From Bacteroides sp. AN502(2024) (lineage in GTDB: Bacteria; Bacteroidota; Bacteroidia; Bacteroidales; Bacteroidaceae), in assembly GCF_041227145.1 (NCBI RefSeq), contig NZ_JBGFSP010000003.1, positions 3,038,001 to 3,102,000 on the forward strand: a DNA stretch of 64,000 bases, written 5' to 3'. The stretch's first letter is position 1, and each line of letters starts with the position of its first letter. Below are positions 38,559 through 45,608 of the stretch, in pieces. The notes under the pieces were generated by a model. That model saw only the letters and a list, made by a program, of their open reading frames with translations, did not search any database and had not been told where the DNA came from. The position numbers and the translations under genes were made by a program.

Positions 38559-39137
38559 TTAGTGACAATGTCCACCTTCACAACCGCAGTTGTCTCCACA
38601 GCCATCACTGCAGCTCTCACATCCGCAACTGCAGCCACCTTCGCCACTCATCATTTTTACTAATTCTTGAATTTCTTCGTTAGTAGCAGGACGGCTTTCG
38701 ATCACTTCGCCTTCAAAGATAAGGTCAGCACCAGCCAACGGGTGGTTAAGGTCGACTACTACAATATCCGGTTTGATTTCTACTACACTGGCATTTACGC
38801 GTTGACCGTCACTTGTCATCAAAGGTACAATGTTGCCTTCTTTAATGCGTTCGCTATCGAATTTTCCATCTATCTCAAAGATATTTTTGGGGAGGTCAAT
38901 AACGTGTTGCTCGTCATATTGTCCGTAAGCCTTATCTGCCGGAATGGTAAAGTCAAATTTGTCACCTTTAGAAAGAGCAGTTATTTGATTTTCGAAATCT
39001 TCGAGTGTTGTTCCTAATCCTGAAATGAATTGAAAGGGATGTTCTGCTTTTGCTTCTTCGAACAACTCTTTTTCGCCATCTTCCATTGTATATAGTTTGT
39101 ATGCAACGGTAATGTACTTGTTTTCTACTGTTTCCAT
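38559..39137 (-). CDS. slyD: SlyD-like FKBP-type peptidyl-prolyl isomerase
   Basis: A 192-residue protein. The FKBP part is interrupted by an insert-in-flap domain as in SlyD: GLGTTLEDFENQITALSKGD and the PADKAYGQYDEQHVIDLPK segment, then VDLNHPLAGADLIFEGEVIE. The C-terminus is a Cys/His-rich tail (10 Cys and 2 His in about 28 residues, ending GGHCH), as in metal-binding SlyD proteins. It is a prolyl isomerase/chaperone that can bind nickel and zinc. It is transcribed convergently to the CyuA-like gene; a TAnnTTTG element lies upstream at 39184-39191. Confidence 0.9.
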   Translation of the reverse strand: METVENKYITVAYKLYTMEDGEKELFEEAKAEHPFQFISGLGTTLEDFENQITALSKGDKFDFTIPADKAYGQYDEQHVIDLPKNIFEIDGKFDSERIKEGNIVPLMTSDGQRVNASVVEIKPDIVVVDLNHPLAGADLIFEGEVIESRPATNEEIQELVKMMSGEGGCSCGCESCSDGCGDNCGCEGGHCH

Positions 39138-39380: not shown

Positions 39381-39411
39381 TTTGGATATAATAAAAAAGC
39401 CCTTACCTTTG
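39381..39411 (+). promoter_or_regulatory. Consensus promoter of the ilv operon leader
   Basis: TTTG at 39381-39384 and TACCTTTG at 39404-39411 are spaced by 19 bp, a full match to the Bacteroides sigma-ABfr consensus. Transcription would start near 39418, about 20 nt before the leader-peptide ATG and about 200 nt before ilvD. Confidence 0.85.
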
Positions 39412-39438
39412 CAGCACGAAAAATCAAGAAAAGAATAT

Positions 39439-39516
39439 ATGAATATGTTACATACATCTATTAACCTGGCAGTCTTGCATATTATTTGCATCGTGGTGGT
39501 CCCATCGAGAGTGTGA
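39439..39516 (+). CDS. Ilv leader peptide (attenuator peptide)
   Basis: An open frame of 25 codons plus TGA, with a purine-rich AAGAAAAGAA upstream. Twelve of the 25 residues are Ile, Leu or Val, and seven codons in a row read IICIVVV (39481-39501), just before PSRV-stop. The composition matches the ilv leader peptides of enterobacteria, although the sequence is not homologous. The stop codon (39514-39516) lies inside the antiterminator arm. The peptide's likely job is to sense charged branched-chain tRNAs by ribosome stalling, not to act as a protein. It is too short for usual gene callers. Confidence 0.85.
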   Translation: MNMLHTSINLAVLHIICIVVVPSRV

Positions 39517-39600
39517 GAAAGGTTTTTGTGTTGTATGTGTTTGTACCATAAAGATAGAATTTAGAGCCTTTCTCACTTGTGTGAGGAAGGCTCTTTAATT
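39511..39600 (+). promoter_or_regulatory. Transcription attenuator of the ilv operon
   Basis: Terminator: AGAGCCTTTCTCAC (39563-39576) pairs with GTGAGGAAGGCTCT (39581-39594) over 14 bp (one G-U) with a TTGT loop, followed by TTTAATT. Competing antiterminator: GTGAGAAAGG (39513-39522) is perfectly complementary to CCTTTCTCAC (39567-39576). A ribosome stalled in the Ile/Val block would leave 39513-39522 free, so the antiterminator forms. A ribosome reaching the stop codon covers it and the terminator forms. The weak T-tract is the only feature below textbook standard. Confidence 0.82.
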
Positions 39601-39615
39601 AAAAGACAGATTGAA

Positions 39616-41415
39616 ATGAAAAAGCTATTACGCAGTTCTTTTAGTACACAAGGTCGTCGGATGGCTGGAGCCCGTGCATTGTGGGCAGCTAACGGCATGA
39701 AGAAGAGTCAGATGGGTAAACCCATTATCGCTATCGTCAATTCGTTCACACAGTTTGTTCCGGGACATGTGCATTTGCATGAAATCGGTCAACTGGTGAA
39801 GACAGAGATTGAGAAGCTGGGATGCTTCGCTGCGGAATTTAATACTATAGCTATTGATGATGGTATAGCGATGGGACATGACGGTATGCTTTATTCGCTT
39901 CCTTCACGTGATATTATTGCAGACAGTGTGGAGTATATGGTCAATGCGCACAAGGCAGATGCAATGGTATGTATCAGCAATTGCGATAAGATCACTCCTG
40001 GAATGTTGATGGTGGCTATGCGTCTGAATATTCCTACCGTATTTGTATCGGGTGGTCCGATGGAAGCCGGAGAGTGGGGTGGTCAGCATTTGGATTTGAT
40101 TGATGCGATGATTAAATCGGCTGATAAAAGTATTAGCGATCAGGAAGTTGAGAATATCGAGCAAAATGCTTGTCCTACCTGTGGATGTTGTTCTGGGATG
40201 TTTACTGCCAACTCGATGAACTGCCTGAATGAAGCAATCGGACTGGCTCTTCCTGGAAACGGAACCATCGTGGCTACACATGAAAACCGTACGCAGCTTT
40301 TCAAAGATGCAGCTGAACTGATCGTGAAAAATGCAAAGTTATATTATGAAGAAGGAGACGAAAGCGTACTTCCCCGTAGTATTGCTACCCGCCAGGCTTT
40401 CTTGAATGCTATGACGCTGGATATAGCGATGGGAGGATCGACCAATACGGTACTTCACCTGTTGGCTATTGCTCATGAAGCTGAGGTAGATTTTAAGATG
40501 GACGACATTGACATGCTTTCCCGCAAGACACCTTGTCTCTGTAAGGTGGCTCCTAATACACAGAAATATCATATTCAGGATGTAAACCGTGCCGGTGGTA
40601 TCGTTGCTATCATGGATGAACTGGCAAAAGGAGGTCTGATAGATACATTCGTCCGACGGGTAGACGGAATGTCATTAGCGGAAGCTATTAATGAATATTC
40701 AATCACCAGCCCGAATGTAAGTGAAAAAGCAATCAAGAAATATTCGAGCGCAGCCGGAAATAGATTCAATCTCGTACTTGGTTCACAGGGTATGTACTAT
40801 AAGGATCTGGATAAAGACCGTGCAACCGGATGTATCCGCGATTTGGAGCATGCTTATAGCAAAGACGGTGGACTGGCCGTATTGAAAGGTAACATTGCTC
40901 AAGATGGTTGTGTAGTAAAAACAGCAGGTGTAGACGAAAGTATCTGGAAGTTTACCGGACCGGCCAAAGTTTTTGATTCGCAGGAAGCCGCCTGTGAAGG
41001 CATCCTTGGGGGACGAGTCGTCAGTGGCGATGTTGTCGTCATTACGCACGAAGGTCCGAAGGGTGGTCCTGGTATGCAGGAAATGCTTTATCCTACCTCT
41101 TATATTAAATCTCGTCATCTCGGAAAAGAATGTGCTTTGATTACCGACGGACGTTTCAGTGGCGGAACTTCCGGATTGAGTATCGGACATATTTCTCCTG
41201 AAGCGGCAGCTGGAGGTAACATCGGAAAAATTGTAGACGGAGACATCATAGAAATCGATATTCCGGCCCGGAAGATTAACGTGCGACTAACGGATGAAGA
41301 ACTGGCAGCCCGTCCGATGACTCCTGTCACTCGTGACCGTTATGTACCGAAGAGTCTGAAAGCCTATGCCAGCATGGTAAGCTCTGCCGATAAGGGAGCT
41401 GTGAGATTAATATGA
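39616..41415 (+). CDS. ilvD: Dihydroxy-acid dehydratase
   Basis: A 599-residue protein from the ATG at 39616 ([20 protein letters not shown]). An in-frame ATG at 39577 lies inside the attenuator terminator hairpin and is rejected. Fe-S cluster and substrate motifs: [38 protein letters not shown], and the C-terminal [23 protein letters not shown]. It forms 2-oxo acids from dihydroxy acids in valine and isoleucine synthesis. It is the first gene of ilvD-ilvB-ilvN-thioesterase-ilvC and is controlled by the leader attenuator. Confidence 0.97.
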
Positions 41416-41443: not shown

Positions 41444-43138
41444 ATGAAGGATTTAATAACAGGTGCAGAGGCTATGATGCGCTCCTTGGAACATCAGGGA
41501 GTGACTACCATTTTTGGTTACCCCGGTGGTTCCATAATGCCGGTGTTCGATGCCTTGTACGATCATCAAAATATATTGAACCATATTTTGGTTCGTCACG
41601 AGCAGGGAGCTGCCCATGCAGCACAAGGTTATGCCCGCGTATCAGGAAAAGTAGGCGTTTGCCTGGTGACGAGTGGTCCCGGAGCAACCAATACGGTAAC
41701 AGGTATTGCAGATGCGATGATTGATAGTACACCTATCGTAGTGATTGCCGGACAGGTAGGAACAGGGTTTCTCGGAACGGATGCTTTTCAGGAAGTTGAC
41801 TTGGTAGGTATTACGCAACCGATCGCTAAATGGAGCTATCAGATCCGTCGTGCGGAAGATGTAGCTTGGGCGGTAGCACGTGCGTTTTATATTGCCCGTA
41901 GTGGGCGTCCCGGTCCGGTGGTATTGGACTTTGCCAAGAATGCGCAAGTAGAAAAAACAAAATATGAACCGACGAAAGTCGATTTTATCCGCAGTTATGT
42001 TCCTGTTCCCGATACGGACGAGGAGTCTGTACGGGCAGCTGCCGAACTGATTAATAACGCTGAACGTCCGCTTGTATTGGTTGGACAGGGTGTTGAATTG
42101 GGAAATGCACAGAACGAATTGCGTGAATTTATTGAAAAGGCGGATATGCCTGCAGGTTGTACACTGCTCGGACTTTCGGCTTTGCCGACAGAACATCCGT
42201 TGAATAAAGGTATGTTGGGTATGCACGGTAATTTGGGACCGAATATCAATACCAATAAATGCGATGTGCTGATTGCTGTCGGTATGCGCTTTGACGATCG
42301 TGTGACTGGCAATCTGGCTACTTACGCCAAACAAGCGAAAGTAATTCATTTTGATATCGATCCTGCGGAAGTGAATAAGAATGTAAAGGTAGATGTAGCT
42401 GTTTGGGGAGATTGCAAGGAGACATTGCCCTCTGTGACTAAACTCCTGAAAAAGAAAACTCATACCGAATGGATTGATAGTTTCAAAGAATATGAGAAGA
42501 TAGAGGAAGAAAAAGTAATCCGCCCTGAACTTCACCCTGCAACAAACTCTTTGAGTATGGGAGAAGTGGTGCGTGCGGTAAGCAATGCTACTCATCACGA
42601 AGCAGTGTTGGTAACGGATGTAGGTCAAAATCAGATGATGTCTGCACGTTACTTCAAATATACGAAAGAACGCAGTATCATCACTTCCGGAGGACTCGGA
42701 ACAATGGGCTTCGGTCTTCCCGCAGCCATCGGGGCAACTTTCGGAGCACCTGAACGTACCGTATGCGTATTTATGGGAGATGGCGGGCTGCAAATGAATA
42801 TTCAGGAACTGGGTACAATTATGGAGCAGAAAGCTCCGGTGAAAATTATCTGCCTGAATAATAATTTCCTCGGGAATGTACGCCAGTGGCAAGCTATGTT
42901 CTTCAATCGCCGCTATTCGTTTACTCCGATGTTGAATCCGGATTACATGAAGGTTGCTTCGGCTTATGATATTCCTTCCAAACGGGCTTTCACCCGTGAA
43001 GAACTGAAAGAAGCCATTACAGAAATGCTGGCAACGGATGGTCCGTTCCTGCTCGAAGCGTGCGTAGTGGAAGAAGGCAATGTTTTGCCGATGACTCCTC
43101 CGGGTGGTTCAGTCAATCAGATGCTGTTGGAATGCTAG
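41444..43138 (+). CDS. ilvB: Acetolactate synthase large (catalytic) subunit
   Basis: A 564-residue ThDP enzyme. FGYPGGSIMPVFDALYD and RHEQGAAHAAQGYAR (conserved Glu for ThDP activation) lie near the N-terminus. GMLGMHGNLGPNI and VLIAVGMRFDDRVTGNL form the FAD-binding region. The ThDP motif is GDGGLQMNIQELGTI to CLNNNFLGNVRQWQ. It condenses pyruvate with pyruvate or 2-oxobutyrate. It pairs with the regulatory subunit encoded 56 bp downstream. Confidence 0.96.
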   Translation: MKDLITGAEAMMRSLEHQGVTTIFGYPGGSIMPVFDALYDHQNILNHILVRHEQGAAHAAQGYARVSGKVGVCLVTSGPGATNTVTGIADAMIDSTPIVVIAGQVGTGFLGTDAFQEVDLVGITQPIAKWSYQIRRAEDVAWAVARAFYIARSGRPGPVVLDFAKNAQVEKTKYEPTKVDFIRSYVPVPDTDEESVRAAAELINNAERPLVLVGQGVELGNAQNELREFIEKADMPAGCTLLGLSALPTEHPLNKGMLGMHGNLGPNINTNKCDVLIAVGMRFDDRVTGNLATYAKQAKVIHFDIDPAEVNKNVKVDVAVWGDCKETLPSVTKLLKKKTHTEWIDSFKEYEKIEEEKVIRPELHPATNSLSMGEVVRAVSNATHHEAVLVTDVGQNQMMSARYFKYTKERSIITSGGLGTMGFGLPAAIGATFGAPERTVCVFMGDGGLQMNIQELGTIMEQKAPVKIICLNNNFLGNVRQWQAMFFNRRYSFTPMLNPDYMKVASAYDIPSKRAFTREELKEAITEMLATDGPFLLEACVVEEGNVLPMTPPGGSVNQMLLEC

Positions 43139-43194
43139 GAGAAGTTGAATATTGAGAATGGAAGATTGAAAGTTCACAATTAAAATTTAGGATT

Positions 43195-43758
43195 ATGAAT
43201 GATAAGACACTCTATACGATAATAGTTCATTCCGAAAATATAGCCGGATTGCTGAATCAGGTAACTGCTGTATTTACTCGTCGGCAAATTAACATCGAGA
43301 GTCTGAATGTATCTGCTTCTTCTATTAAAGGTGTACACAAATATACGATTACAGCCTGGACGGATAAGGACACTATTGAGAAGGTCGTGAAACAGATCGA
43401 AAAGAAAATCGATGTGATTCAGGCACATTATTTCACCGAGGATGAAATATACTTCCATGAGATTGCATTATATAAGGTATCTACTCCTGCTTTTCAGGAA
43501 ACTCCGGAAGCATCCAAGTTAATCCGTAGATACAATGCCCGTGTGGTGGAAGTCAATCCGGTATTTTCTATTGTTGAGAAAAATGGTATGAGCGAAGATA
43601 TAACATCGCTTTATGGTGAGCTGAAGGCTTTGAATTGTGTGTTGCAGTTTGTCCGGTCGGGACGCGTAGCGATTACTACCAGTTGTTTTGAACGGGTGAA
43701 TGAGTTTCTTGATGGACGGGAATCCAAGTATAACCAAAGTAAAAAACAGCAAGAATAA
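43195..43758 (+). CDS. ilvN: Acetolactate synthase small (regulatory) subunit
   Basis: A 187-residue protein. The N-terminal ACT domain is TIIVHSENIAGLLNQVTAVF then RRQINIESLNVSAS, the valine-binding motif. A second ferredoxin-like domain occupies residues ~85-165. It confers valine feedback inhibition and raises catalytic activity of IlvB. Its stop codon overlaps the thioesterase start codon by one base (TAATG), so the two genes are coupled. Confidence 0.93.
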   Translation: MNDKTLYTIIVHSENIAGLLNQVTAVFTRRQINIESLNVSASSIKGVHKYTITAWTDKDTIEKVVKQIEKKIDVIQAHYFTEDEIYFHEIALYKVSTPAFQETPEASKLIRRYNARVVEVNPVFSIVEKNGMSEDITSLYGELKALNCVLQFVRSGRVAITTSCFERVNEFLDGRESKYNQSKKQQE

Positions 43759-44501
43759 TGAGTGAAGAAAATAAAATAGGGACTTATCAGTTTGTAGTAG
43801 AGCCGTTCCATGTTGACTTTAACGGACGTCTTACTATGGGTGTATTGGGAAATCATTTACTGAATTGTGCTGGTTTTCACGCAAGTGACCGTGGCTTCGG
43901 CATTGCAACACTGAATGAGGATAATTATACATGGGTACTTTCACGTCTGGCTATTGAGTTGGATGAAATGCCTTATCAGTATGAAAATTTTTCAGTTCGG
44001 ACATGGGTGGAAAATGTCTACCGCTTGTTTACTGACCGTAACTTTGCCATTGTCGATAAGGATGGGAAGAAAATTGGTTATGCGCGTTCGGTATGGGCGA
44101 TGATTAATCTCAATACCCGCAAGCCAGCCGATTTGCTGACCCTGCATAGAGGCAGTATCGTAGATTATATCTGTGACGAACCTTGTCCTATTGAAAAACC
44201 TTCACGTATCAAAGTGACAAGCGATCAACCGATGGCTACCCTGGCGGCAAAATATAGTGATATTGATATTAATGGTCATGTGAACAGTATCCGTTACATC
44301 GAGCATATCCTCGATCTGTTCCCGATAGAGTTGCACAAAACTAAACGTATTCGCCGTTTTGAGATGGCGTACGTGGCCGAAAGTTACTTTGGCGATGAGC
44401 TCTCTTTCTTCTGTGATGAAGTAAATGCAAACGAGTTTCACGTAGAAGTAAAGAAAAATGGCAGCGAAGTCGTTTGCCGCTCGAAAATAGTATTTGAATA
44501 A
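43758..44501 (+). CDS. Acyl-ACP thioesterase (double-hotdog FatA/B-like)
   Basis: A 247-residue protein of the acyl-ACP thioesterase family (PF01643-type). The N-terminal hotdog has FNGRLTMGVLGNHLLNCAG. The second hotdog carries the catalytic block DIDINGHVNSIRYIEHILD (Asn-x-His, with a later acidic residue). YARSVWAMINLNTRKP is the connecting strand. It should release fatty acids from ACP in the cytoplasm. It is embedded between ilvN (1-bp overlap) and ilvC (63 bp), so it is expressed with branched-chain amino acid synthesis. The reason is not evident from sequence. Confidence 0.87.
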   Translation: MSEENKIGTYQFVVEPFHVDFNGRLTMGVLGNHLLNCAGFHASDRGFGIATLNEDNYTWVLSRLAIELDEMPYQYENFSVRTWVENVYRLFTDRNFAIVDKDGKKIGYARSVWAMINLNTRKPADLLTLHRGSIVDYICDEPCPIEKPSRIKVTSDQPMATLAAKYSDIDINGHVNSIRYIEHILDLFPIELHKTKRIRRFEMAYVAESYFGDELSFFCDEVNANEFHVEVKKNGSEVVCRSKIVFE

Positions 44502-44564
44502 ATAGGATATAAAATCAATTAATAACAGATGGTGTAAGCCATCAAAACTAAAAACAAAAAGAAA

Positions 44565-45608
44565 ATGGCACAGTTGAATTTTGGCGGAACTATTGAAAAT
44601 GTAGTGATCCGTGACGAATTTCCTTTGGAAAAAGCTCGTGAAGTATTGAAAAATGAAACAATTGCTGTAATTGGGTATGGTGTACAAGGACCTGGCCAAG
44701 CGCTGAATTTGCGTGATAACGGTTTCAATGTAATCGTTGGTCAACGTCAGGGAAAAACATACGATAAAGCAGTGGCAGACGGATGGGTTCCGGGTGAAAC
44801 TTTGTTCGGCATTGAAGAAGCTTGCGAGAAAGGTACTATTGTAATGTGCCTGTTGTCTGACGCAGCAGTAATGTCTGTATGGCCTACTATCAAACCTTGC
44901 TTGACTGCCGGGAAAGCTCTTTATTTCTCACATGGTTTTGCTATCACTTGGAACGACCGTACAGGTGTAGTTCCTCCTACTGATATCGATGTTATCATGG
45001 TTGCTCCTAAAGGTTCGGGCACCTCTTTGCGTACAATGTTCCTTGAAGGACGTGGCTTGAACTCTTCTTATGCCATCTATCAGGATGCTACAGGTAAAGC
45101 AATGGATAGAACCATCGCGTTGGGTATCGGTATTGGTTCCGGATATTTGTTTGAAACAACTTTCCAACGTGAAGCAATCTCTGATTTGACAGGTGAACGT
45201 GGATCATTGATGGGAGCTATTCAAGGTTTGTTGCTGGCCCAGTACGAAGTATTGCGTGAAAACGGTCATACTCCTTCAGAAGCATTTAATGAAACAGTAG
45301 AAGAACTGACGCAGTCGTTGATGCCGTTGTTTGCAAAGAACGGTATGGATTGGATGTATGCTAACTGCTCTACTACTGCTCAACGTGGTGCTCTTGATTG
45401 GATGGGACCATTCCACGATGCTATCAAGCCGGTAGTTGAAAAGTTGTATGATAGCGTGAAGACAGGTAACGAAGCACAGATTTCTATCGACAGTAATTCA
45501 CAACCTGATTATCGTGAAAAATTGAATGAAGAGCTCCGTCAACTACGTGAAAGTGAAATGTGGCAGACAGCTGTTACTGTGCGTAAACTTCGTCCGGAAA
45601 ATAATTAG
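44565..45608 (+). CDS. ilvC: Ketol-acid reductoisomerase
   Basis: A 347-residue class I enzyme. The Rossmann motif is VIGYGVQGPGQALNLRDNG, with the NADP-binding loop at NVIVGQRQGKTYDKA. VAPKGSGTSLR is conserved; the C-terminal knotted domain has DLTGERGSLMGAIQGLLLAQYEV and EEL-QSLMPLF with the Mg ligands. It isomerises and reduces acetolactate. The last base of its TAG stop codon is the first base of the IS remnant. Using the flank now found at 61946, the pre-insertion end reads one codon longer (...ENNY-stop). It ends the operon. Confidence 0.95.
   Translation: MAQLNFGGTIENVVIRDEFPLEKAREVLKNETIAVIGYGVQGPGQALNLRDNGFNVIVGQRQGKTYDKAVADGWVPGETLFGIEEACEKGTIVMCLLSDAAVMSVWPTIKPCLTAGKALYFSHGFAITWNDRTGVVPPTDIDVIMVAPKGSGTSLRTMFLEGRGLNSSYAIYQDATGKAMDRTIALGIGIGSGYLFETTFQREAISDLTGERGSLMGAIQGLLLAQYEVLRENGHTPSEAFNETVEELTQSLMPLFAKNGMDWMYANCSTTAQRGALDWMGPFHDAIKPVVEKLYDSVKTGNEAQISIDSNSQPDYREKLNEELRQLRESEMWQTAVTVRKLRPENN

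Follow-up and report, generated by a model that had tools for sequence, protein, structure and literature searches.

The ilvD locus and its leader

The DNA analysed here (the window) is a 64,000-nucleotide stretch of the genome of Bacteroides sp. AN502(2024), hereafter referred to as the host. It carries the gene for dihydroxy-acid dehydratase, ilvD, followed by ilvB, ilvN, an acyl-ACP thioesterase gene and ilvC, and preceded by the leader region under study (Table 1). Their spacing and common strand suggest that the five genes are co-transcribed. As the upstream neighbour, an FKBP gene, is divergent, the terminator described below, which sits between the promoter and ilvD, does not belong to the FKBP gene. 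Among the best 80 of at least 595 named IlvD loci, the nearest IlvD is that of Bacteroides propionicigenes, with 90% identity. The thioesterase gene (PF01643, PF20791; window positions 43758-44501) lies between ilvN and ilvC, a position hinting that the ilv operon may be tied to branched-chain fatty acids.

Table 1. Features of the ilvD leader and neighbouring genes (positions in the window)
Feature	Positions	Strand	Basis or remark
FKBP gene, upstream neighbour of the leader	38559-39137	opposite, divergent	
TTTG, -33 element of a Bacteroides-type promoter	39381-39384	+	read from sequence; spacer of 19 to the -7 element
TACCTTTG, -7 element (TAnnTTTG)	39404-39411	+	no other TAnnTTTG within 500 nt upstream of ilvD
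Leader ORF MNMLHTSINLAVLHIICIVVVPSRV, regulatory block I-I-C-I-V-V-V	39439-39516	+	ATG at 39439, TGA at 39514-39516
Region 1, pairs with 39517-39539 (1:2 hairpin)	39449-39474	+	fold, swap test, slid-partner control
Region 2, 5' arm of the antiterminator, overlapping the stop codon	39513-39526	+	sequence, fold, swap test
Region 3, shared by antiterminator (3' arm) and terminator (5' arm)	39563-39576	+	GCCTTTCTC invariant in 24 aligned
Region 4, terminator 3' arm	39581-39594	+	3:4 cells 95.2% paired in 24 genomes
Short U-rich tract, at and after the terminator stem end	39592-39600	+	CUCUUUAAUUAA
ilvD, dihydroxy-acid dehydratase, first regulated gene	39616-41415	+	Pfam PF00920 and PF24877
ilvB, ilvN, acyl-ACP thioesterase, ilvC (presumed operon)	41444-45608	+	Pfam domains

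A previous examination of the letters of this stretch (the sequence-only reading) had described a complete attenuator upstream of ilvD, and its anatomy was confirmed on re-reading. The promoter boxes, TTTG and TACCTTTG, are present with a spacer of 19 and match TTTG/TAnnTTTG, which we take to be the Bacteroides consensus at -33/-7; in 46 of the 50 leaders called below, a TAnnTTTG likewise precedes the start codon by 24-57 nt. The 25-codon ORF is rich in the amino acids of its operon, with Ile, Leu or Val at 12 of 25 residues. Its regulatory block closes with a Val codon whose last base is 39501, leaving 11 nt to region 2, and the leader stop codon does lie inside the antiterminator arm, where GTGAGAAAGG (39513-39522) contains the TGA. 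The same ten bases are a perfect 10-bp match to CCTTTCTCAC (39567-39576), a helix that grows to 14 pairs when G-U is allowed, and the 14-bp terminator claimed for 39563-39576 with 39581-39594 is likewise found, one of its pairs being G-U. The 2:3 and 3:4 helices are mutually exclusive.

The sequence-only reading had not mentioned a third helix. When the leader is folded without region 3, positions 39449-39474, corresponding to leader codons 4 to 12, pair with 39517-39539. This 1:2 helix completes the classical 1-2-3-4 layout and provides, as a predicted pairing, its pause or protector hairpin. The segment 39420-39616 folds more stably than shuffled versions (z -3.15; 2 of 200 shuffles as good), and its fold includes a 6-bp stem near the ilvD start, at which the folded segment ends (39616). 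In many relatives the T runs are longer than the short U-tract of the host, CUCUUUAAUUAA. No Rfam family, T-box and other leaders included, reached its gathering score within or close to the leader; twelve sub-threshold matches, such as PyrR and BTnc201, were judged to be due to chance.

Distribution of the leader

Of 121 genomes of the family, 108 have an IlvD match, as do 46 of the 118 in the order sample. Upstream regions were read for 60 of the 108 and, with G000 and G002 excluded, for 40 of 44 order matches, the remaining four starting near the contig start. A strict caller was applied. It requires an ORF that starts with ATG, spans 12-40 codons, has an Ile, Leu and Val content of 40% or more and is followed, at a distance of 10-90 nt, by a perfect hairpin with a T-rich tail. 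It was positive for 50 of these 100 Bacteroidales upstream regions, host included (26/60 in the family, 24/40 in the order), compared to one call among 1000 dinucleotide shuffles and one among 100 reverse strands. When Ile, Leu and Val were replaced by any of ten other sets of three residues, 0 or 1 of 100 regions was called. The conservation of the ORF and stems, on which the sequence-only reading had made its interpretation depend, is hence borne out. The count is a lower bound, as Ile/Leu/Val leaders were also seen by eye in six further genomes (G041, G097, G112, G031, G124 and G235), two of which, G124 and G235, have no hairpin by the rule. Between families, the leader peptides share Ile/Leu/Val richness and, by eye, little else.

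These counts bear on an alternative reading, a constitutive partial terminator preceded by a chance ORF, with no amino acid sensing. The short U-tract of the host would suit such an arrangement and the case for an attenuator is itself sequence-based, but the difference between real and shuffled upstream regions, together with the partner-specific 2:3 and 1:2 pairing reported in the next section, makes this explanation scarcely credible.

Among the named IlvD loci (best 80 of at least 595), the strict caller was positive in 32 of 80. This set overlaps with the family and order set (at least three loci: L185/G062, L208/G158 and L220/G142) and so the two are not independent. None of the 14 named loci with titles outside Bacteroidota was called, three of which had less than 200 nt of upstream DNA. 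Of ten named Prevotella or Prevotellaceae loci, two were called and eight were not, and seven of the eight have TAnnTTTG 31-54 nt before ilvD. In some relatives, for instance L028, L034 and L037, neither leader nor terminator was seen upstream of ilvD and the TAnnTTTG element is 46-54 nt from the gene, which suggests that such branches have lost attenuation or never had it. A phylum-level search for IlvD matched 61 genomes, of which 30 loci were read (one being the host); several loci of one family in this set, in which the ORFs alone were examined, carry short Ile/Leu/Val ORFs.

Partner-specific pairing

Pairing was scored in an alignment of 24 family members, with the partner slid by 1-3 columns as a control. 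For the 1:2 helix, 80.5% of cells are paired as compared to 29-52% after sliding, and 8 pairs are changed on both sides, a number that is reached by 13 of 500 shuffles and also by slides -2 and +2, two of the six controls. The corresponding values are 94.6% versus 44-68% for 2:3 and 95.2% versus 42-73% for 3:4, the latter with slight covariation. Only one pair of the 2:3 helix is changed on both sides within the family, and in the 24 aligned members this helix does not rise above shuffles (133/500 for cells paired, 70/500 for covariation). Region 3 (GCCTTTCTC) is invariant in the alignment, which accounts for the near lack of compensatory change. The within-family 2:3 result counts against a covariation argument at that depth.

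At larger distance, the interaction energy of each genome's own region pair was compared with that of permuted partners across 50 genomes (5000 permutations, which ignore kinship although the genomes are related). For 2:3, the own partners sum to -673.1 kcal/mol, against a permuted mean of -591.6 and a minimum of -634.0. In the 18 genomes lacking CCTTTCTC in region 3, which include the near twins G023 and G049, the own sum is -207.3 and the permuted mean -160.6, with 0 of 5000 permutations as low. For 1:2, the sum over all 50 is -814.6 and the permuted mean -655.1, again with 0 of 5000 as low. Examples of own partners are GGAGGGCT with AGCCCTCC, ACCCGGAAA with TTTCCGGGT and AAGAATGGT with GCCATTCTT. 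On the other side, the divergent regions 2 pair with consensus-type regions 3 (mean -11.17) nearly as well as with their own (-11.52), and in several genomes (e.g. G018, G003 and G179) the best 2:3 helix without interruption has only 5 pairs. Compensatory stem changes, which the sequence-only reading had proposed to look for, are hence weak within the family, whereas the swaps support partner-specific predicted pairing of both 1:2 and 2:3 at larger distance.

Ribosome position and the switch

The effect of a ribosome on the leader was modelled by folding the RNA that begins 16 nt downstream of the first nucleotide of the codon in the P site and ends with region 3, and calculating the probability that region 3 is paired upstream. 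Over the 50 called genomes, this probability averages 0.73 when the A site holds an Ile, Leu or Val codon, 0.17 when it holds the stop codon (48 genomes; two have no value) and 0.44 with no ribosome. It exceeds 0.5 for the stalled ribosome in 49 of 50 and falls below 0.3 at the stop codon in 39 of 50, both being the case in 39 of 50. In the fold model, a stall frees region 2 and a ribosome at the stop codon covers it, and the geometry which had been said to suit an enterobacterial-type mechanism holds up in these 39 leaders. The host values are 0.87 stalled, 0.05 at the stop codon and 0.94 without a ribosome; the last means that the equilibrium fold does not predict termination as the default in the host.

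The switch point follows the last adjacent pair of Ile, Leu or Val codons by a median of 2 codons. Of the 972 codons before the switch 558 encode these residues, as compared to 11 of the 108 that follow it; when residues are permuted within each peptide (2000 permutations), the number after the switch averages 55.2 with a minimum of 38. Since the location of the stop codons also constrains the possible switch points, permutation is the relevant control. In five ilvD leaders (L008, L013, L019, L027 and L056) the ORF runs through region 2 and stops 8-12 nt past it, and the pheA leader L166 also runs through region 2 with its stop beyond.

Leaders of other amino acid operons

Four further operons of the host begin with a leader ORF followed by a terminator: hisG (MKYTAIHHHHHFPDE, with HHHHH), leuA (MNQMFIHILLCGIIILLSKGGGSECCA), trpB (MKTMLVNTYWWWRPLQLRQS, with WWW) and pheA (MKSFTYAYYFFFYFYFSSKVEREFVCIK, with FFFYFYF). 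The host TrpB scores over the cut-off of TIGR00263; the trp operon was reached via a trpE-like gene scoring below the cut-off of TIGR00564. Across six or seven genomes, including one from another family, matching leaders were found at 6/6 hisG, 5/7 leuA, 6/6 trp (7 genomes matched) and 7/7 pheA loci; the leuA loci L141 and L142 were unreadable, their start being misplaced in the cut locus. Exact patterns for the ilvD antiterminator and terminator have no second site in the host genome, and so the sibling attenuators are not copies of the ilvD leader sequence.

The footprint model was applied to 24 sibling cases without L164, of which 2 were not located, 2 were terminator-less by the rule and 20 were scored. 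Four of six hisG cases dropped from 0.65-0.86 (stalled) to 0.02-0.05 (stop codon), the other two remaining at 0.35 and 0.54 with the ribosome at the stop codon, and five pheA cases gave 0.63-0.86 and 0.03-0.36, respectively. The trpB leaders are intermediate (0.48-0.54 stalled in 4) and the leuA leaders weak (0.32-0.43 stalled in 4).

The leader ORF could instead encode a functional small hydrophobic, perhaps membrane, protein, with the terminator only setting its level relative to ilvD. Peptides rich in Ile, Leu and Val would resemble transmembrane segments, which speaks for this. However, the peptides of different families have, by eye, little in common beyond that richness, the sibling leaders are each rich in the residue of their own pathway, runs of His and Trp included, and the switch coincides with the last Ile, Leu or Val codons, all of which render a small protein very improbable.

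Upstream of thrA, the host (L176; C3:2620300-2621800) has a Thr/Met leader-like ORF, MKYYPHTVTSMCTMTLRG, 133-190 nt before the gene. An ORF of this type was found in 4 of 6 thrA loci, with a Thr-rich ORF in a fifth, and by eye no clear intrinsic terminator accompanies these ORFs. Other regulatory outputs may hence exist in the group, and together with the short U-tract of the host this gives some grounds for supposing that the ilvD leader acts mainly on ilvD translation, or via Rho, instead of through an intrinsic terminator. The terminator hairpin of ilvD is nevertheless kept across the 24 aligned genomes and its tails are T-rich, so that we regard this route too as highly unlikely.

Proposed mechanism and related systems

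Taken from the sequence evidence, the ilvD leader very probably attenuates transcription by the ribosome-mediated mechanism of the 1-2-3-4 type. Transcription would start a few bases after 39411 and proceed through the leader ORF. When charged tRNA-Ile, -Val or -Leu is scarce, the ribosome would stall in the I-I-C-I-V-V-V block and leave region 2 free, upon which 2:3 would form and the polymerase continue into ilvD-ilvB-ilvN-thioesterase-ilvC. When charged tRNA is ample, the ribosome would reach the stop codon and cover region 2, and 3:4 would terminate transcription before ilvD. The 1:2 hairpin probably causes pausing or, if the leader is untranslated, occupies region 2 by default. Ribosomes of this phylum hardly use Shine-Dalgarno pairing. 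If the attenuator works as proposed, the ribosome must trail RNA polymerase closely, which would make coupling directly testable in the phylum, and the conserved leaders could serve as ready-made reporters of amino acid status in dominant gut bacteria.

The mechanism is known in kind from E. coli, and the ilvD leader of Bacteroidales appears to be a further instance with a sequence unrelated by eye. The sequence-only reading had supposed that ilv-leader logic operates here with a sequence unlike the enterobacterial one, and the conservation in half of the upstream regions, the footprint results and the sibling leaders support this. Similarly to the host leader, that of the E. coli ilvXGMEDA operon (ilvL, NC_000913) is rich in Ile, Leu and Val (MTALLRVISLVVISVVVIIIPPCGAALGRGKA) and is followed by a GC-rich hairpin and a T-run. 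It differs in having 32 codons instead of 25; in the host, region 2 starts at the stop codon, the promoter is of the Bacteroides type and the first gene is ilvD.

A comparative genomic survey by Lopatovskaya et al. in 2010, which judging by its title reportedly covers attenuation in amino acid and aminoacyl-tRNA operons of bacteria, may have listed such leaders. Flavobacterium psychrophilum belongs to the same phylum as the host and to a different family. Its amino acid operons are preceded by clues of leader peptides and attenuation has been suggested for them, in a main text that does not contain 'ilv' (PMC9723704). In B. thetaiotaomicron, long 5' UTRs hold sORFs 'reminiscent of leader peptides', the named example being BT_4401, and the main text again is without 'ilv' (PMC7366714). 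The main text of PMC10994844 contains neither 'attenuat' nor 'leader peptide'. In the open-licence literature, as far as the accessible portions of the sources go (PMC7366714, PMC4833913 and PMC9723704 included), we found no description of the ilvD leader. It had been remarked that coupling is less well studied in Bacteroides, which is fair; the subject is not unexplored, however, given the suggestion of leader-peptide attenuation in PMC9723704.

Synonymous codons in the leaders

Codon use in the ilvD leaders was compared to a background of 39 ORFs of the window only; with this narrow background, and with each codon treated as independent, the chi-square values for the differences are rough. 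The Val codon GTC accounts for 52/123 (family) and 52/101 (order) of Val codons in the leaders versus 169/1123 in the window ORFs, and GTA for 4/123 and 17/101 versus 391/1123. For Ile, ATT makes up 86/102 and 52/71 versus 539/1225, and for Leu, CTA makes up 18/81 and 18/91 versus 79/1506. At least one GTC codon is present in 46 of 50 ilvD leaders, and all four Leu codons of the host leuA leader are CTA. The preference is not a general feature of the leaders: in other four-fold codons of the same leaders, C occupies the third place in 16% and A in 46%, compared to 46% and 9% for Val, and the Ile ratio ATT:ATC is 138:24 against 102:94 for other NNT:NNC pairs.

Bias of this kind is known from attenuator leaders and is ascribed in E. 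coli to selective isoacceptor charging (PMC1183508). In the host, 150 of 247 tRNA candidates were scored and gave 70 matches, all of which were assigned by ARAGORN. Among these 70, Val is represented by the anticodon TAC only (2 genes) and Ile by GAT only, a CAT tRNA for ATA being indistinguishable from Met; no tRNA-Val(GAC) and no tRNA-Leu(CAA) were present among them. With one tRNA reading every Val codon, the host has no choice of isoacceptor, and selective isoacceptor charging could not explain its Val bias.

A GAC-type tRNA-Val sequence was seen by eye in 28 of 60 Bacteroidales and confirmed by ARAGORN in 11 of 11 that were fetched; at 9 other fetched pattern matches, that of the host included, ARAGORN found no tRNA-Val. 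GTC forms 12 of 21 Val codons in four leader-bearing genomes with tRNA-Val(GAC) and 18 of 39 in nine without. A single tRNA-Val as the general cause of the GTC bias was ruled out, as the bias is present with tRNA-Val(GAC) too.

It is conceivable, although we would hold it only tentatively, that Bacteroidales run a classical set of attenuators (ilv, leu, his, trp and phe) in which the ilv leaders are selected for the synonymous codons GUC/GUG, AUU and CUA. With such a set, transcription and translation would have to be tightly coupled at these leaders, and if the codons are selected, decoding speed on one tRNA would set the sensor in the host. The codon bias would offer a test of the part that codon identity, apart from tRNA charging, plays in attenuator sensitivity. 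The E. coli ilvL leader (L318:23-121) shares the preference for GTC/GTG and ATT, which the isoacceptor set does not explain; counted by eye, its Val codons are GTG five times and GTC once, and its Ile codons ATT four times and ATC once.
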